IMG/VR virus record: IMGVR_UViG_3300035698_012119
Coordinates: 1 to 64,000 of that record
DNA from: a virus
DNA length: 64,000 nt
Reading direction: 5' to 3' (one strand)
The translations under genes and the position numbers were made by a program. Positions 40,980-48,385 of this stretch are shown here, in pieces. Every line of letters begins with the position of its first letter. Within the stretch, counting starts at the first letter, position 1. The notes beneath the pieces are model-generated. The model saw nothing but the letters and a program-made list of their open reading frames with translations. It did no database searches and was not told where the DNA came from.

Positions 40980-41314
40980 GTTTCCCGACGCTCCTTGTCC
41001 GTAAAATGTGTCAGAAGGATGATGTAATGCATCGACTTGAGAAGGTCCTTCCGGTTGATACCTTCTTTACGTCCAAGTCTCATGAGATATTTGATGGCTG
41101 TCCCTTGACACATTTCACTGGCAATGTCGAGTGATTCCCACACGTCTATTGTTTGAATCTCTTCCTTGCCGACGTAGTGTTGAGAATAAGTACTTCCGAT
41201 GTACTCTCCTACGTCGCGGAGTATTTCTTGCTCACTAAACTTGTATTTAATTGGAGGCAAGTAGTGGTCGTCTGTCGTTTCTTTATGTTGGGGTTCGTCT
41301 AATTCATCTTGCAA
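40976..41314 (-). CDS. DUF3310-like protein
   Basis: 112 residues from a TTG at 41314, preceded by GGAG at 7 bases and overlapping the upstream stop by 11 bases. The sequence IQTIDVWESLDIASEMCQGT, then AIKYLMRLGRKEGINRKDLL and KSMHYIILLTH, is the conserved core of DUF3310. These are small phage proteins sometimes linked to nucleotide kinases, with unknown activity. It lies in a run of nucleotide-metabolism genes, which agrees with that link. Confidence 0.7.
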   Translation of the reverse strand: MQDELDEPQHKETTDDHYLPPIKYKFSEQEILRDVGEYIGSTYSQHYVGKEEIQTIDVWESLDIASEMCQGTAIKYLMRLGRKEGINRKDLLKSMHYIILLTHFTDKERRET

Positions 41315-42161
41315 GGTCAGTCTCCATGTTAATAAGGTTGTCGATATAATCACAATTGGTCCTGGCAAGGTTGATCAAGGCTGAATCGGTACATACCATG
41401 TCAAAATCAACCTCGTGCTCATACTTGCCGTTCACTAAGCCTGAAGGACTATTGTCGAATCTGACGTTGTTCAATCCTGCCCACACAGCAGCAGAACTGT
41501 CCCACGTGTTAATATACCCAAGGTGATCTTTGACCAGAGATATTTCATTGGGACCGTCGACCATTCCAAGCATGTGAACACGCTTGTTGTTGTCCTGGAT
41601 CTTTTGTACAATCCCACGATCAACGAGGGCGTTCAGAAAGTGCCATCTGGAAAGAAACCGTTGAAGTTTGTTGTCTTGCTCTACGCCATATGCATTCGGT
41701 ATAGCAAGAATGGACACGCCAATGTAATCTACGTGTTTGGAATCAGCTGCCCATGCAAAACCATCGATTAGATCTTCGATGTCACCAATATTCGACTGTG
41801 GGACAAAGAATGTCCCAAACCCACCATCCCTGATTTCTCGGCTAGTTTCAACAGCTTTGTCGATTGTTTTTTGACCTGGCTCAGCAGGATAATCAGACAT
41901 TACAATGTAATCGGCACCTACTGTTGTGCCCATCTCGACAAGCTTTGATGAAGGATACATAGGTAACCCTTGCTTGAACATCTCAAACCCGCCGTTATCA
42001 AGAATTGTGATGTTATCAGGGTTTTCAAAATTTTCGTCGCTATACCACTGTGCATAACGTTGATCTGTTTCAACAAGATGTGCCAACACAAGATGTGTCT
42101 TTCTTCCTTTAGCAAAGTCGTCAAGGTGGGGGGTGGGCGCAATGTGACAAAAGTCTGTCAT
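41304..42161 (-). CDS. TGT/DpdA-like TIM-barrel protein, candidate 7-deazaguanine transglycosylase
   Basis: 285 residues from the ATG at 42161, chosen for the GGAG six bases upstream; an ATG at 42173 is in frame but poorly placed. The sequence NITILDNGGFEMFKQGLP resembles the DSGGFQ substrate site of tRNA-guanine transglycosylases. RVHMLGMVDGPNEISLV followed by INTWDSSAAVWAG resembles the MGVG and catalytic Asp region. The zinc motif of bacterial TGT is absent, as in phage DpdA proteins that put 7-deazaguanines into DNA. Genes folE, queE and queD lie 4 to 7 kb upstream on the same strand. The barrel call is moderate. The DpdA role is inferred from motifs plus context; another TIM-barrel function is possible. 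Confidence 0.5.
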   Translation of the reverse strand: MTDFCHIAPTPHLDDFAKGRKTHLVLAHLVETDQRYAQWYSDENFENPDNITILDNGGFEMFKQGLPMYPSSKLVEMGTTVGADYIVMSDYPAEPGQKTIDKAVETSREIRDGGFGTFFVPQSNIGDIEDLIDGFAWAADSKHVDYIGVSILAIPNAYGVEQDNKLQRFLSRWHFLNALVDRGIVQKIQDNNKRVHMLGMVDGPNEISLVKDHLGYINTWDSSAAVWAGLNNVRFDNSPSGLVNGKYEHEVDFDMVCTDSALINLARTNCDYIDNLINMETDLAR

Positions 42162-42227: not shown

Positions 42228-42608
42228 TTATTGGTAGATTGAAGTGGAGCCGTTCTCACCATCTTCAGATATTTCGATGTGAATGCCACGATCGGGATAT
42301 CGCGCTGATATCTTCTCTGCAAGATCATCTGAAATCATCTCACAGCTTTTGTAGTCTAGCTGCAGGGTACCGTCACCATACAACGATTCAAGCCAACGCT
42401 TGAATTGAATAAATTCAATGTCACGGTCGTCGTGAAAGACGTCAATGGCCACTTTGATGTGAAAGATGTGACGATGTGGATAACCCAAAAAGCTGACATC
42501 ATACTCGTCACCTGTAGCGAGTTCCGGATCAGTCAGGGCAGCGGGATATTTGTGAATCCCCTCTCGCTGAAACTTGACCCAAATACGGTTTGTAATTTTA
42601 TTTAGCAT
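42228..42608 (-). CDS. Conserved marine T4-type protein, possible T-fold
   Basis: 126 residues, with MLNKITNRIWVKFQREGIHK at the start, YPHRHIFHIKVAIDVFHDDR and EFIQFKRWLESLYGDG in the middle and SCEMISDDLAEKISARYPDR then IHIEISEDGENGS at the end. The last part recalls the arrangement in 6-pyruvoyl-tetrahydropterin synthase and QueD (a beta-alpha unit, then a short helix, then a strand ending with an acidic residue). It lies next to the TGT-like gene in a genome that carries FolE and QueD. A T-fold pteridine-type enzyme is a guess. The protein is strongly conserved in this phage group. A GGAG site lies 8 bases upstream. Confidence 0.6.
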   Translation of the reverse strand: MLNKITNRIWVKFQREGIHKYPAALTDPELATGDEYDVSFLGYPHRHIFHIKVAIDVFHDDRDIEFIQFKRWLESLYGDGTLQLDYKSCEMISDDLAEKISARYPDRGIHIEISEDGENGSTSIYQ

Positions 42609-43661: not shown

Positions 43662-45374
43662 TTATTTTGTATACTTCAACTTTCCACAATCATACACTTT
43701 TAAAAACCCGTGATTTAGTGCGTTCTGGTGCTCTGTCAATTCGGGACAAAAAGTGTCAGGATACTTTGCTTGGAGTTTGGCTCTTGTCATTTGCCTCCGA
43801 GGGATTCTCCTCTTTGTAGCTCTACAGTAGTAAGTGTAATCTGGTTTTGTCTGATGGGTCAGACTCATCCCCGACTTTTGATATATGTTGTTTTCAAAAT
43901 CAGTCCACAACAAATCAGCATACGTGTAGACGTTGGTAACCTTTGACATTATTTTTGACAGTCCACCTACAACAGGGAGTTTTGACGCAAATCTTGTAAG
44001 ATCGTGACTGTCACCATACCGCTTAAATGTCGCAACAGAAACCAACAGACCCTCATGCTCGAGGCCTATGTTGAAAGAGTGATTGACATTCCCTTGAATG
44101 TGATGATGCTCGAGAAACTCCTTACAATCAACATCATATACTACTTTTGTCTTTCTTGCCCCTATAGATATATCTGATGGCTCCAAAAGAGACATGATTT
44201 TTCGTCGGATTAGATCTGGACCATCTCTTAGATCATCTTCAAACAGGTGGATCAATCTTATACCATTATGTGCAGCATCTTTCTTTTTGTCTAAATGATA
44301 ATTTGTAGGTTTGAATTTCTCGGAGTGCCAATAACAACCATTTATTTCAAACCCTATGTTATAATCAGGGAGAAAGATGTCAATCTCCTTACGGTCACTC
44401 AACAATGTTCTATCATTGAATATAGGAGAATAATCAGCTAGCCATCTACCAACCATGTGCTCGTAGGATGAAGGCTGTCCAATTCCCTTTCTCAGAATGT
44501 CGAAACTATCAAGCATCTCTGCTACAATAGGGTGGCTGCATCCTAGAAATTCGCCCATTTGCTCGAGTGACATCGTTTTATAAAGTTCCTCCAACAGAAC
44601 TTTGTCGTAAAGACCTTCAATGTTTTCTCTTGGTGTTCCTTTTGTAAACACACCCAGTTTGTGTATTTGTGTGTTGATTATGTGATTCTTGACCTTATAT
44701 TTTTTCGCAATCTGTGGTATCGTATATTGCTCTCTTAGTTTACGTAGAGTATCAGCACTCTGTATGTCTATATGAATCTCTACATGTGTGTTTCTTTTTG
44801 TGTCTTCTCCAGACTGTTTAATAATATCTGATGCTGTCTGAACACTACAGCCAATTTCTTTTGAACATTGTGTGACATTAGAACCGCTATGCCATTGTTT
44901 TAATATCTGTGTTTTCACACTCTCTACATCGAACTTAAACTTGTCAAACTTTTTGTACTTTTTGGCCCACTTGGTTACAGTAGAGGGTGCATGTCCTGTA
45001 ATTGCTGATATTCCAACAATTGTCTCGCACGAATCGAATAGGATAGGATCGAAGGGGATTGATTTAATCACAACAATCTTGCTAATTCTCACAAATCTTC
45101 GAACAGAATCTACTGGAACCTCTAACCTGTCTGCAATGACTCTGCAATTGATATTTCCGCTAATATAATCATCCTGAAACTCACAGAACCTACGCGCGAC
45201 AATATCATAGAACGTCTCCCTCAATACTACGCCCCAACGATCTGCAAGTTCCTGCACCGACGAAGACGATACGCCGTACGTATTTGCAATGGAAGAGAAG
45301 CTCTCTCCCGAATCGATTAGATCCTGAAAAGAGCTTCTATTAAGAACAGACGTAAGTGTTCCTCTTTTAGACAC
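43662..45374 (-). CDS. Vsr-like (EDxHD-type) homing endonuclease with tandem helix-turn-helix modules
   Basis: 570 residues from a GTG whose G is the last base of the folE stop (TAGTG). The nuclease core is at about residues 310-400: EIDIFLPDYNIGFEINGCYW followed by HSEKF, and later KDAAHNGIRLIHLFEDDL, the pattern of the Vsr-like endonucleases found in fractured phage genes. The first 300 residues hold about six helix-turn-helix-like units, for example FSSIANTYGVSSSSVQELAD, NVTQCSKEIGCSVQTASDII and LEQMGEFLGCSHPIVAEML. The C-terminal domain (KEFLEHHHIQGNVNHSFNIG) is also typical of this family. It is a free-standing mobile gene, and no split host gene is seen beside it. The nuclease family call is firm; mobility is inferred. 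Confidence 0.85.
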   Translation of the reverse strand: MSKRGTLTSVLNRSSFQDLIDSGESFSSIANTYGVSSSSVQELADRWGVVLRETFYDIVARRFCEFQDDYISGNINCRVIADRLEVPVDSVRRFVRISKIVVIKSIPFDPILFDSCETIVGISAITGHAPSTVTKWAKKYKKFDKFKFDVESVKTQILKQWHSGSNVTQCSKEIGCSVQTASDIIKQSGEDTKRNTHVEIHIDIQSADTLRKLREQYTIPQIAKKYKVKNHIINTQIHKLGVFTKGTPRENIEGLYDKVLLEELYKTMSLEQMGEFLGCSHPIVAEMLDSFDILRKGIGQPSSYEHMVGRWLADYSPIFNDRTLLSDRKEIDIFLPDYNIGFEINGCYWHSEKFKPTNYHLDKKKDAAHNGIRLIHLFEDDLRDGPDLIRRKIMSLLEPSDISIGARKTKVVYDVDCKEFLEHHHIQGNVNHSFNIGLEHEGLLVSVATFKRYGDSHDLTRFASKLPVVGGLSKIMSKVTNVYTYADLLWTDFENNIYQKSGMSLTHQTKPDYTYYCRATKRRIPRRQMTRAKLQAKYPDTFCPELTEHQNALNHGFLKVYDCGKLKYTK

Positions 45375-46081
45375 TATGCGCGATTACCTGCAAACTGCTG
45401 CTGCATTTTCACATTGTCAAAGAACTCTTGCTTGACACTTTGGTTGAAGAATTGTCCCCTAAGTTCTGTTGTTTGAGTCAAAGAGCTGTTTGCCATCACT
45501 CCTCGTGTGGAACAACATCCGTGTGTAGCTTGGATGTAGACAGCAACATCACGCGTTTCTGTCGCCTTGCTGATCTCGTTAGCAATGTCCATCGTCAACT
45601 GCTCTTGGAGTGTTCCACGACGTGCTGCATGTTGAGCAATTCGAATGTACTTCGAGAGCCCGATCACACTTGATGATGGCAAAACTCCGATATATGCGAC
45701 ACCTTGAACGTCCTTGTGGTGGTGACTACACATTGAGTGGATCTCTGCACGTACAACAATCATTCCGCTATACCGTGTATCAGGATCAGTGTTTGGGAAT
45801 GAAGTTACAGGTGGAGGTGGCGTGTAGCGACCTCGCATCGTTTCGTTGATGTACATCTTTGCAAGACGCTTTGCTGTTCCCATTGAGTTTGGATCTGTAT
45901 TGCGATCGATAATTAGAGAGTCGAGTACACCTTCAAACTTAATTGCCAATTCATCGATCAGCATATCCGTTTCGCCCTCTTCAATGAATGGCGATATGTT
46001 GTCATTTGCCCAGAAACGGCTATTACTGTCTTGTATCCGCGCACGTATTGTCTCGGAGATTGTTTTGTTTTCTTTCGTCAT
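45374..46081 (-). CDS. folE: GTP cyclohydrolase I
   Basis: 235 residues from the ATG at 46081, preceded by GAAAGG; the longer frame upstream would run through the structured leader. GTP cyclohydrolase motifs are MYINETMRGRY, EIHSMCSHHHKDVQGVAYIG (zinc Cys and His), VIGLSKYIRIAQHAARRGTL and QATHGCCSTRGV (second zinc Cys). The enzyme turns GTP into dihydroneopterin triphosphate, the first step of both folate and 7-deazaguanine synthesis. With queE and queD upstream the second use is favoured. The leader forms a pseudoknot that hides the ribosome-binding site. The stop codon overlaps the start of the Vsr-like endonuclease gene. Confidence 0.93.
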   Translation of the reverse strand: MTKENKTISETIRARIQDSNSRFWANDNISPFIEEGETDMLIDELAIKFEGVLDSLIIDRNTDPNSMGTAKRLAKMYINETMRGRYTPPPPVTSFPNTDPDTRYSGMIVVRAEIHSMCSHHHKDVQGVAYIGVLPSSSVIGLSKYIRIAQHAARRGTLQEQLTMDIANEISKATETRDVAVYIQATHGCCSTRGVMANSSLTQTTELRGQFFNQSVKQEFFDNVKMQQQFAGNRA

Positions 46082-46091
46082 GTTTGTAGTG

Positions 46092-46138
46092 CCTTTCAGA
46101 TTGTGTTTTATGTCAGTGGAAAGGAGCGAGGACTGACA
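46092..46138 (-). promoter_or_regulatory. Candidate preQ1-II-like riboswitch in the folE leader
   Basis: On the minus strand a 7-bp perfect stem (TGTCAGT at 46138-46132, ACTGACA at 46117-46111) closes a 14-base loop. The loop contains CCTTTC, the exact complement of the folE ribosome-binding sequence GAAAGG at 46097-46092. A 13-base A-rich linker (TAAAACACAATCT) lies between. This is an H-type pseudoknot that masks the Shine-Dalgarno sequence, the architecture of preQ1 riboswitches; the loop GCTCCTTTC and the CATAAAACAC segment resemble class II. Ligand binding is inferred. Confidence 0.5.
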
Positions 46139-46145
46139 CACTCGG

Positions 46146-46177
46146 CCAACAGAAAACCTTACGGTGCAACCTGTTGG
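46146..46177 (-). promoter_or_regulatory. Second hairpin in the folE leader
   Basis: CCAACAG (46177-46171) pairs with CTGTTGG (46152-46146) in the minus-strand RNA. Inside, ACC-GTAA-GGT forms a small GNRA-capped stem. It lies between the phosphoribosyltransferase stop and the pseudoknot and could be part of the same switch or a separate processing hairpin. Confidence 0.45.
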
Positions 46178-46193
46178 AAAGTCTTGTTGCTTT

Positions 46194-46634
46194 CTATTGT
46201 TGTTCCCAGGGAAATGTGACCCAGGGCGCATCGGCTGGGATCAACATGGCTGTCACATCACTGTTGAATATGCTATCTACTTTTGTAACAAGTGATGCGT
46301 ATACGACGTTGTCTGTGCCGCCATACACATTGTTTATTGAGTTAAAAGTATGACCAGTATCATTGATGTCGTCAACAAATACAACTCTTTTACCTGATTT
46401 TATACCTTCTTTGAGTTCAGAGTTGTGCTCACACTTCTGAACATCGCGTGTTTGCCACACAATAGTTTGGAGCGGCAACTCAAGATGGTGTGATAGGTAA
46501 AGAGCAGGAAGAAGCCCCCCTCTTGTAATTCCTACAATAATGTCAGGACTATGTGTTTCGACGTGCGTCCTGAGGTGTTTACACATGAGATCAATATCAT
46601 TGTAGCTGATATGCATTTTAGCGACTGTGCTCAT
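46194..46634 (-). CDS. Type I phosphoribosyltransferase (Gpt-like)
   Basis: 146 residues. The sequence DIIVGITRGGLLPALYLSHH is the N-terminal phosphoribosyltransferase strand and loop, and GKRVVFVDDINDTGHTF is the PRPP-binding motif of type I enzymes. The closest pattern is xanthine/guanine phosphoribosyltransferase, including the C-terminal tryptophan-rich end (PADAPWVTFPWEQQ). It would join a purine-like base to PRPP. It lies between folE and queE, so a 7-deazaguanine base is a possible substrate; ordinary guanine or xanthine salvage is the alternative. An AGGAG site lies 8 bases before the ATG, and a 13-bp hairpin lies in the leader. Confidence 0.85.
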   Translation of the reverse strand: MSTVAKMHISYNDIDLMCKHLRTHVETHSPDIIVGITRGGLLPALYLSHHLELPLQTIVWQTRDVQKCEHNSELKEGIKSGKRVVFVDDINDTGHTFNSINNVYGGTDNVVYASLVTKVDSIFNSDVTAMLIPADAPWVTFPWEQQ

Positions 46635-46791
46635 TTACGTGCTCCTATTGTAGGCGGAATGAACGACAGATCTGCTTCATTCAATCAGATCTGTCGTTTG
46701 TATGTTAGGTTACGATTTGGTTTTCAAATCGATACACGTGAACTCTTGCAGCTACGTTGGGTGTGGGCACAAGAGGCTCACCACCTTGATG
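46635..46791. other. Structured intergenic region between queE and the phosphoribosyltransferase gene
   Basis: 157 bases with no gene. Two hairpins are seen: 46662-46698, a 13-bp stem (ACGACAGATCTG core) with an 11-base loop, 28 bases from the phosphoribosyltransferase start; and 46713-46731, a 7-bp stem CGATTTG/CAAATCG with a 5-base loop. Neither has a T-run. They may be processing or attenuation sites. Confidence 0.6.
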
Positions 46792-47676
46792 TTACGCTAA
46801 ACTGGCATAGAGGTGAATCTGAAGATTGAGAACGTAACCGTGTTCGATGCAGTATTGTGCTGCATATTCATGATTACGTTGATTTGCATCCATATCCAAC
46901 AATCCAGGTTCCCAGAAGCTAATTACCTCATCGACTGTAGATCTTTCTCCGATCTCAATTCTATTTGCTCCACTGTTCCGCAACTCCTTACTCTTTATTG
47001 GCTCGTCGTTGTATACGTTCATTGGACTGATGTAGATTGGCTTGTTTGTCTTTTCGTGCCATTCTTGTGCCCACTCTGGAATTGAGCTGTATGGGCTGTC
47101 CGGATCCGCTTCCATCACGAACTTCAAACAATCCGCATCGATCATGTTGTCTTTGTGTGGTTTGATGTACTTGCCCATCATTCCACCCTTCTCGATGCAC
47201 TTTGGACTCATAACCAAAACCGTTGTTTTCGGAATACTCGATTGATGAACGATCCCATTGGATTCGATTTGAGTATTCTTAAATACCTTATTCATCCGTT
47301 CCAACAGCGGTCCAATATTCTTCTGTAAGAGGGGTTCACCACCCGTCATTACAAGAACCACTTGCTTTTTAATTCCCGTCAACGGATCATGCAAAGTCCA
47401 ATCAGGACGATTCATCCCCTTGTCTGAATAGAATTTGTCTATTGCTGTTTCGATGTTCGCATCGACCTCGTCGAACGTCATCCAATCGCCATCATCAAAG
47501 AATGTGTCACAAAAACTACAAGCCAGATTACATTTTGCTAATCTAATAAAGAAAGCTGGTTCGCCCCGGAATGGCCCTTCCCCTTGTAAGGTCATGAACA
47601 TCGAAGTGACGAACAACTTGTCTTCTTCTGCGTCCTTAAAATATTTTTGTCCTACTATTTCGTTTTTTCCAAACAT
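46792..47676 (-). CDS. queE: 7-carboxy-7-deazaguanine synthase QueE (radical SAM)
   Basis: 294 residues. The segment MTLQGEGPFRGEPAFFIRLA followed by KCNLACSFCDTFFDDG carries the QueE N-terminus and the CxxxCxxC iron-sulphur motif. VVLVMTGGEPLLQKN is the radical SAM GGEP motif, and TQIESNGIV follows. QueE converts 6-carboxytetrahydropterin to 7-carboxy-7-deazaguanine using SAM. It is downstream of the queD homologue, separated by about 60 bases, and upstream of the phosphoribosyltransferase and folE. All the steps from GTP to CDG are thus coded in 3 kb. Confidence 0.93.
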   Translation of the reverse strand: MFGKNEIVGQKYFKDAEEDKLFVTSMFMTLQGEGPFRGEPAFFIRLAKCNLACSFCDTFFDDGDWMTFDEVDANIETAIDKFYSDKGMNRPDWTLHDPLTGIKKQVVLVMTGGEPLLQKNIGPLLERMNKVFKNTQIESNGIVHQSSIPKTTVLVMSPKCIEKGGMMGKYIKPHKDNMIDADCLKFVMEADPDSPYSSIPEWAQEWHEKTNKPIYISPMNVYNDEPIKSKELRNSGANRIEIGERSTVDEVISFWEPGLLDMDANQRNHEYAAQYCIEHGYVLNLQIHLYASLA

Positions 47677-47740: not shown

Positions 47741-48385
47741 TTACGGTGTGCCACAAGAGCATTCATGATCTCCTTGCTCGATTTTTGTTAGATGTGACCA
47801 GGATCCAAGACGCTCAATCGCATCGATTGGCGCTTCCCAATCCCATCGTGATTTGATAGGAAGAGTTTCGTGACCGCCATCAATCTTACTATTTGCATCA
47901 GCAAAGGCTGTTTGTTTATCTACTTCGCACATTGCATCGTTGCGGTTGTGCTCATATACACGTACACGTTCTACATAACAGCGTCCGTCCGTTACCTTAT
48001 ACACGTAATGGTTGACGTGCTCCCAGATAAACAGCGAGCTCATTTCCATAGATACACCACTTGGCAATACACGCAACGTGCCAAGTATGCCACCAGGCGC
48101 TGTCAGTTCGGACGTGATTTGTCCAAGTCTCGGATCGTCAGCAGGAAGTACTGTGACGTGATCGAAGTAATATTCGAGGAAGTGTTTCACAGGACCGAGT
48201 TCACCAAACGGAACAATCCATCCATGTGGATCAATCTCTCCTGCAAATGTAAACTCAACTTCACGATCGTATCCGTGAACGCTTGCACAATCACCTGGCG
48301 TGCCGTCAGGATTCTTGTCAAAATGTTGTGCATGGCCACACGGAAGGTACTTGAACACCTTCGTTGCCTTAATTTGTATTGCCAT
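47741..48385 (-). CDS. queD: 6-carboxytetrahydropterin synthase homologue (QueD/PTPS family)
   Basis: 214 residues, longer than the usual 120-150. The sequence YLPCGHAQHF, then GDCASVHGYDREVEFTFAG, DPHGWIVPFGELGPVKHFLE and YYFDHVTVLPADDP follows QueD: zinc His, catalytic Cys, the HGH zinc motif, the FGELK segment and the LDH catalytic triad part. Here HGH is HGY, so one zinc ligand is replaced. The C-terminal 70 residues carry WEHVNHYVYKVTDGRC and an added tail ending ECSCGTP. The role, dihydroneopterin triphosphate to 6-carboxytetrahydropterin, is assigned with queE and folE next door. The HGY form appears typical of the phage branch, as far as I recall. Confidence 0.8.
   Translation of the reverse strand: MAIQIKATKVFKYLPCGHAQHFDKNPDGTPGDCASVHGYDREVEFTFAGEIDPHGWIVPFGELGPVKHFLEYYFDHVTVLPADDPRLGQITSELTAPGGILGTLRVLPSGVSMEMSSLFIWEHVNHYVYKVTDGRCYVERVRVYEHNRNDAMCEVDKQTAFADANSKIDGGHETLPIKSRWDWEAPIDAIERLGSWSHLTKIEQGDHECSCGTP

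Follow-up and report, generated by a model that had tools for sequence, protein, structure and literature searches.

The gene folE, encoding GTP cyclohydrolase I, is preceded in a 64,000-nucleotide stretch of viral DNA (positions 1 to 64,000 of IMG/VR record IMGVR_UViG_3300035698_012119, referred to here as the window) by a leader that raises the question of whether translation of this gene is controlled by an RNA switch. The original prediction, made from the letters of the sequence, described a hairpin whose loop pairs with the Shine-Dalgarno (SD) sequence, and regarded the resulting pseudoknot as a reduced or new variant of the class II preQ1 (preQ1-II) riboswitch. Here, the reality and extent of this pseudoknot, its class and the signal to which it may respond are considered.

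Structure and extent of the folE leader

The predicted hairpin is present on the minus strand as a perfect 7-bp stem (TGTCAGT, 46138-46132, with ACTGACA, 46117-46111), which the minimum free energy fold extends to 9 bp by two outer pairs. As described, its loop CCTCGCTCCTTTCC (46131-46118) contains CCTTTC (46124-46119), the exact complement of the SD GAAAGG (46097-46092), and a 13-nt linker, TAAAACACAATCT, joins the stem to the SD, with the folE ATG located at 46081-46079 on the minus strand. The stability of the nested fold is ordinary (z 0.02). When the sequence of the leader preceding a fixed SD was dinucleotide-shuffled 20,000 times, 14 shuffles contained a stem of at least 7 bp with CCTTTC in its loop, a frequency that is not decisive by itself because the window contains many leaders; it is the relatives that decide.

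Comparison with these relatives showed that the leader is a conserved RNA of ~112 nt (minus strand, 46193-46082) composed of two pseudoknotted domains. The proposed pseudoknot over the folE ribosome-binding site was thereby borne out, while proving too small, as it represents only the 3' part of an RNA reaching 46193. Beyond the hairpin, the RNA comprises a second, 5' pseudoknot and a helix in which the strand following this pseudoknot pairs with the 5' half of the P2 loop. The leader occupies the whole gap between the stop codon of a phosphoribosyltransferase (PRTase) gene, directly 5' of it, and folE. Its parts, in window numbering and with pair counts from 19 sequences, are as follows.

46194..46634, minus: PRTase gene, directly upstream and in the same direction (PF00156, E 8.4e-11)
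46079..46193, minus: whole conserved leader RNA up to the folE start codon (cmsearch 109.8 bits, E 1.1e-26)
46186..46190, minus: S1 5' strand GCAAC of the 5' pseudoknot, partner of S1' GUUGC (96.8% of cells paired; double changes in two of five pairs)
46171..46177, minus: S2 5' strand CCAACAG (95.6% of cells paired over six pairs, five with double changes; 10-12 on the tree)
46166..46170, minus: S1' strand GUUGC (pair counts)
46156..46165, minus: small hairpin P1a, ACC-GUAA-GGU, within the 5' pseudoknot (94.3% of cells paired; double changes in two of three pairs)
46153..46156, minus: U-rich strand (UUU in 19 of 19 by column counts)
46146..46152, minus: S2' strand CUGUUGG (pair counts)
46141..46144, minus: A strand CGAG, complement of A' CUCG in the P2 loop (helix shuffle tests)
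46132..46138, minus: P2 5' strand UGUCAGU (97.0% of cells paired; double changes in three of seven pairs; 10-14 on the tree)
46127..46130, minus: A' segment CUCG in the P2 loop (helix shuffle tests)
46119..46124, minus: B, the anti-SD CCUUUC (94.5% of cells paired; double changes in four of six pairs)
46118, minus: last P2-loop base (U in L512, C in the other 18 sequences), at the position of preQ1-II U41 as assigned from PMC11625349
46111..46117, minus: P2 3' strand ACUGACA (pair counts)
46098..46110, minus: A-rich linker UAAAACACAAUCU (in alignment A6, AA at columns 103-104 and C at column 113 are invariant in 19 of 19)
46092..46097, minus: SD GAAAGG, partner of B (sequence and pair counts)
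45374..46081, minus: folE, GTP cyclohydrolase I, 235 aa (PF01227, E 3.3e-37)

The window leader belongs to the seed of covariance model R1, so that its 109.8-bit score is a seed self-match; it is the sole R1 match at E≤1 in the 80,667-base record. An alternative reading of the conservation, in which the FolE reading frame runs through the leader, was rejected because locus L025 carries a one-base insertion there and the SD and ATG are common to all copies.

Distribution and covariation of the leader

A tblastn search with FolE in IMG/VR yielded five loci, three of which carry a leader identical to that of the window or differing by one base. A FolE alignment search added 80 loci (the best 80 of 577 relatives), among which L028, L029 and L032 exhibited a diverged but recognisably homologous leader. 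Patterns drawn from leaders of this type yielded further copies, and R1 was built on 14 sequences. R1 matched in seven of the 92 FolE-bearing sources and identified 19 full copies in 96 pattern-derived sources, several being FolE-search contigs again or identical copies. In total, 19 distinct full leader sequences were found on 24 IMG/VR contigs and the window record. Searched with R1 over their whole length, 13 records contained one strong copy each, the two other matches being weak (E 0.30 and 0.40).

Three of the search patterns required part of the 3' domain, and the invariance of its letters is therefore partly built in. A pattern restricted to the 5' domain (requiring GCAAC, CCAG and GUUGC; 75 stretches) brought four new copies, all with the 3' domain and folE, so the co-occurrence of the two domains is not an artefact of the first patterns. 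Among named phages, a divergent copy was identified in Aeromonas phage Ahp1_CNU-2021 (MT161459.1), directly before an annotated GTP cyclohydrolase I (R1 37.6 bits, E 2e-7). Two further candidates were omitted from the pair counts, namely L137 (21.5 bits, E 0.083, without P2) and L127 (26.5 bits, truncated where its contig stops), the latter also preceding folE. The FolE behind this truncated copy (L127:43-1224) carries an N-terminal extension of ~165 aa of unknown function.

The folE leader of Vibrio phage D479 (L528:3130-3240) has almost no sequence similarity to the family, but visual inspection and a descriptor both indicated comparable pairing in A, P2 and B. It gave no R1 match up to E 10; it may be a far relative of the family and entered only the 21-sequence A:A' test described below. 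Neither an R1 match nor a convincing descriptor hit was obtained for the folE leaders of eight other named phages (L530-L537). One of these, from Vibrio phage Bakedbeans (L532), contains a pyrimidine-rich loop, closed by the stem GATGTCC/GGACATC, ahead of UAAACUCGAA, an arrangement that was considered doubtful by eye and is not matched by R1. Six more named-phage leaders (L007-L012) contained no copy according to R1. Against phage records, blastn with the window and L032 leaders returned chance matches only, and with the Ahp1 leader only itself and one chance match.

Further patterns added little: the first (15 stretches) returned near-identical copies only, another 3'-domain pattern (at least 119 stretches) no copy beyond those known, and a late pattern (83 stretches) none among the 80 not already known, the best being L574 (20.3 bits, E 0.14) and L615 (16.8 bits, E 0.15). 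At least 119 pattern stretches from bacterial genomes included no convincing copy; the best were L422 (21.8 bits, E 0.033), judged on its sequence to be a chance match, and L351 (18.8 bits, E 0.33). R1 found none in 299 genomes of one phylum, a weak negative obtained with strict filters, 12 candidates scored per genome in the results displayed and no positive control.

Covariation was assessed in the 19-row alignment A6 for 27 named pairs in five helices, i.e. S1 (GCAAC/GUUGC), S2 (CCAG../..CUGG), P1a, P2 and B:B' (P2 loop with SD). Across 505 cells, 95.8% were standard pairs, and double changes were observed in 16 pairs and 79 cells; in 500 shuffles, these values were reached by zero (pairing), one (pairs) and zero (cells) shuffles, respectively. 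When partners were slid by one to three columns, pairing fell to 32-46%. Further pair types did not exceed shuffles (58 of 500 with 14 sequences, 95 of 500 with 19), and the covariation picture was unchanged with 14 sequences and 24 pairs. Counted on two trees, double changes numbered 10-14 in P2, 10-12 in S2, 4-6 in P1a, 2-3 in S1 and 2-3 in B. A6 was fitted to R1, the structure of which contains S2 and P2 only, and S1, P1a and B were consequently not fitted as pairs; a second alignment, A3, was made with MAFFT. P1a was not seen in L157.

Since S1 and S2 cross, the 5' domain forms a pseudoknot, and the same holds for the 3' domain, in which P2 and B cross. Of 133 ungapped cells in the 19 sequences, 120 retained the pairing between SD and loop, compared with a mean of 108.9 for re-dealt SDs, of which one in 5,000 reached this value. 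The covariation in both helices and the conserved loop-to-SD pairing on which the original prediction had staked itself were thus found among the relatives, and the two-pseudoknot structure is, judging from these pairing statistics, almost certainly real. The few independent double changes in S1 and B (2-3 each) count against the explanation favoured below.

The additional helix, A:A', varies in sequence between CGAG/CUCG (window type), CAAAGG/CCUUUG (L167), CAGG/CCUG (L176) and CAAG/CUUG (Ahp1). Its summed longest helices amounted to 62 in 19 sequences, compared with a shuffled mean of 56.3 (reached in 26 of 3000), to 71 versus 61.6 (0 of 5000) when Ahp1 and D479 were added by hand, and to 53 versus 44.7 (3 of 5000) for the 15 distinct combinations. 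A:A' is less sure than the other helices because 12 of the 19 sequences form no more than 2-3 bp of it, pairing AGG/CCU (eight), AG/CU (one) or GG/CC (three). Many unpaired leader bases were also invariant across the 19-sequence alignment.

Comparison with preQ1 riboswitches

At gathering scores, the window contained no Rfam match. At E≤10, the sole entries for the leader region were mir-9223 (plus strand 46185-46246, 14.2 bits), on the opposite strand, and sR32 (45956-45985), outside the leader; both were judged chance matches. Nine further loci (seven with the RNA, i.e. L126, L186 and L336-L340, and the chance hits L154 and L188) had none at the leader, and their snoR9 and SCARNA18 matches were likewise attributed to chance; no Rfam 15 family matched any leader copy scanned. 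For preQ1-II in particular, cmscan of the leader region gave no RF01054 match up to E 10, the window's genome had none, and the three nearest relatives (G001-G003) had one, located away from the leader (G001:45543-45624, 12.7 bits). Conversely, L618, a probable preQ1-II RNA, scored 44.4 bits with RF01054 (below the 47-bit cut-off) and only 6.5 bits with R1.

In layout, the leader resembles preQ1-II. In both, the SD is taken up entirely by pairing with the stem loop (for the leader, in 94.5% of cells with double changes in four of six pairs), and they share an A-rich joiner, an extra upstream stem and a 7-deazaguanine pathway context. The loop opens with C in all 19 leaders, as at the C30 position, an agreement partly built in by the search patterns. 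The letters of the window loop and linker, which the original prediction had likened to preQ1-II, do resemble the RF01054 consensus (CUUAgUucCUUU and CAUAUUAcA), but this likeness fades across the family.

The differences concern the pocket and other features. According to PMC11625349, preQ1-II reads its ligand via C30 and U41, with U40-A71 below; from this description and the RF01054 consensus, C30 and U41 were assigned to the first and last positions of the P2 loop. The last loop base of the leader is C in 18 of 19 sequences (U in L512) instead of U41, and the loop-SD pair beside the stem is C-G in 19 of 19 instead of U40-A71. Leader loops measure 12-16 nt and also contain A', and the RNA carries a 5' pseudoknot. 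The P4 hairpin between P2 and SD is absent, as had been noted at the outset, the window having a linker of 13 nt in this place and the remaining A6 rows short ones, although PMC11625349 reports only a mild effect of P4 deletion on binding. Finally, preQ1-II is found before queT in Bacillota, whereas the leader precedes phage folE or folE2.

Features of preQ1-I type III, described in PMC10622847 as a pyrimidine-rich loop, a variable A-rich tail and an SD within the pseudoknot helix, are likewise shared by the leader, as is a C just before the 3' strand of the stem, which recalls the specificity base of preQ1-I (PMC11625349). In type III, however, the 5' side of the loop is UU and AC stands before the 3' strand, whereas the leader has CC (19 of 19) and CC (18 of 19; CU in L512), respectively; preQ1-I types I and III both open their loop with UU. 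The leader loop is, moreover, almost twice as long, a second pseudoknotted domain is present, and the gene is folE rather than yhhQ.

It is accordingly very unlikely that the leader is a reduced member of preQ1-II, or a preQ1-I type III RNA: the shared layout and the conserved C before the 3' strand are set against the missing Rfam matches, the altered pocket and loop-opening bases and the extra domain. Because the pocket bases, linker and 5' domain differ and RF01054 misses the family, the leader is set apart from preQ1-II, and would represent a new class among the leaders that sequester the SD in a pseudoknot.

Gene neighbourhood and a candidate switch

The genes surrounding the leader include the following.

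46792..47676, minus: queE-like radical SAM gene (phrog_2076, E 1.8e-51)
47741..48385, minus: queD-like gene (PF01242, E 2.4e-14; phrog_2389)
41304..42158, minus: gene for a DpdA-like protein with a tRNA-guanine transglycosylase (TGT) fold (AlphaFold2 pLDDT 92.8; Foldseek)

The 13 best Foldseek PDB matches of the DpdA-like protein are TGTs (best E 1.5e-8; query TM 0.56-0.61, moderate), other TIM barrels ranking after these from E 2e-6, while no Pfam, NCBIfam or PHROG match was obtained. The model suggests that this protein is likely a DpdA-type DNA base-exchange enzyme. Phage DpdA and DpdA2 are TGT relatives that insert preQ0 into DNA (PMC6884629). By tblastn, the DpdA-like protein matched in four of 50,697 phage records, Vibrio phage nt-1 (the DpdA2 source) not being among these, and in no plasmid.

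Across the 20 member sources (19 and Ahp1), tblastn identified QueD in 17, QueE in 15, the DpdA-like protein in 15 and the PRTase in 10, the QueE match of L176 being only a 29-aa fragment at the contig end. Of the five loci in which no DpdA-like gene was found, four have at most 1.4 kb of sequence past the leader, whereas L167 has 5.7 kb. L167 also encodes QueC (PF06508, E 4.7e-51), which was not found in G000 (the window's genome), G001 or G009, so that the window phage may stop short of preQ0 or borrow a host enzyme. The neighbourhood is, on its predicted gene functions, one of 7-deazaguanine DNA modification, in agreement with the pathway context originally proposed for folE.

Three further genes were noted. 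A phrog_17812 protein of unknown function (42228-42608, minus) shares the distribution of the DpdA-like gene, both occurring in the same 15 of the 20 sources, and the PRTase could have a role in 7-deazaguanine nucleotide metabolism. A 570-aa protein with HTH domains, encoded directly after folE (43662-45374, minus), is also found in L025, whereas none of the other loci listed showed it behind folE; its gene is possibly mobile.

A GTP cyclohydrolase gene follows the leader in 20 of 20 copies. FolE accounts for 19 (PF01227 in 16, tblastn in L157 and L486, annotation and tblastn in Ahp1) and FolE2 for one, which replaces FolE in the otherwise similar operon of L176 (5474-6430, minus; PF02649, E 1.7e-59; NF010200 above cut-off). 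FolE2 belongs to a protein family unrelated to FolE that performs the same reaction, and the leader has therefore outlived a gene replacement. Conversely, the leader is absent from 85 of 92 FolE-bearing sources (a few, e.g. L076, having too little upstream sequence to tell) and so is not simply part of folE. Tracking the reaction rather than the protein, it argues against autoregulation by FolE and for sensing of a pathway metabolite.

These data bear on the possibility that the partner of the leader could be a protein rather than a metabolite. In T4-like phages, leader structures serve in protein-mediated autoregulation, the gene 32 pseudoknot providing a precedent for translational control by a phage leader, and the tight operon with PRTase, QueD and QueE would also suit an operator through which folE is repressed when a pathway enzyme, or some general repressor of translation, binds to the pseudoknot. 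The gene 32 leader is bound by its own product, whereas the folE leader persists while the product changes from FolE to FolE2; FolE itself is consequently an unlikely repressor. The many invariant unpaired bases resemble an aptamer, although a protein site could also give these. On balance, a protein operator is regarded as rather unlikely.

The position of the leader invites a second alternative. The nearest upstream ORF (at least 60 aa) stops within 17 nt of the 5' end of the leader in 17 of 20 copies, the exceptions being L138 (no ORF listed), L157 (overlapping frame) and Ahp1 (ORF ending 33 nt before). Filling the gap between upstream stop and SD, the element could be remodelled by translating ribosomes, as in a static or temperature-sensitive 5' UTR (mRNA stability, translational coupling or an RNA thermometer) without a specific partner. 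This is quite improbable in view of the invariant unpaired bases, the restriction to GTP cyclohydrolase genes and a second complex domain that mere SD masking would not need.

Regarding the ligand, the FolE product is a precursor of both folates and 7-deazaguanines, and a riboswitch of the same architecture might instead sense folate, pterin or GTP/dGTP. THF-II, also called the folE motif, resembles the leader in its link to folate genes. By lowering accessibility of the ribosome-binding site, THF-II regulates translation of folate-related genes, a precedent for control of this kind (PMC9881143). It is, however, a rod of two helices with the binding site in the right arm of P1, whereas the leader consists of two covarying domains of crossing helices; THF-II gave no Rfam match at the leader, and no THF family appeared in the E≤10 list for the leader region. 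With QueD, QueE and the DpdA-like gene as neighbours, such a ligand is considered unlikely.

The leader exhibits the general hallmarks of a riboswitch, being a conserved structured leader tied to one pathway and overlapping an expression signal. Control of translation is favoured because the element sits between the upstream stop and the SD without a terminator-like site (none found in 45900-46800, 0.8 expected). The ligand would most likely be a guanine-like 7-deazaguanine intermediate (preQ0, CDG or preQ1), favoured by the pathway position of FolE, retention of the leader across FolE and FolE2 and the DNA-modification neighbours, with GTP, pterins and folates as alternatives. A plentiful pathway product would bind the leader and stabilize B:B', burying the SD and leaving folE or folE2 untranslated (an assumed OFF direction); with scarce product, the SD would be free. 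Feedback of this type, as originally envisaged, is plausible. We give about an even chance to the leader being a new phage riboswitch candidate class, built on two covarying pseudoknots and acting on translation initiation for the enzyme that opens 7-deazaguanine synthesis.

A phage-encoded riboswitch is reportedly mentioned in one published paper (PMC9004378), and phage riboswitches as such are therefore not new. Among the matches listed in a search of open-access literature, there was no report of a leader RNA or RNA switch for phage 7-deazaguanine genes. As far as these searches go, this phage-family leader RNA is previously undescribed, and its shape strongly suggests an off-switch of folE translation. 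A fuller reading, to which we assign somewhat less than an even chance, is that this new and so far phage-only class senses preQ0 or another 7-deazaguanine intermediate through its two pseudoknotted domains and thereby throttles synthesis of a hypermodified, restriction-resistant DNA base, with A:A', which would compete or cooperate with SD pairing in the same loop, as a possible switching element. The leader offers a compact RNA with a natural swap of FolE for FolE2 under the same leader, and a version is present in a named phage, Aeromonas phage Ahp1_CNU-2021. If true, this reading would connect the sensing of a metabolite by RNA with DNA modification that counters restriction.
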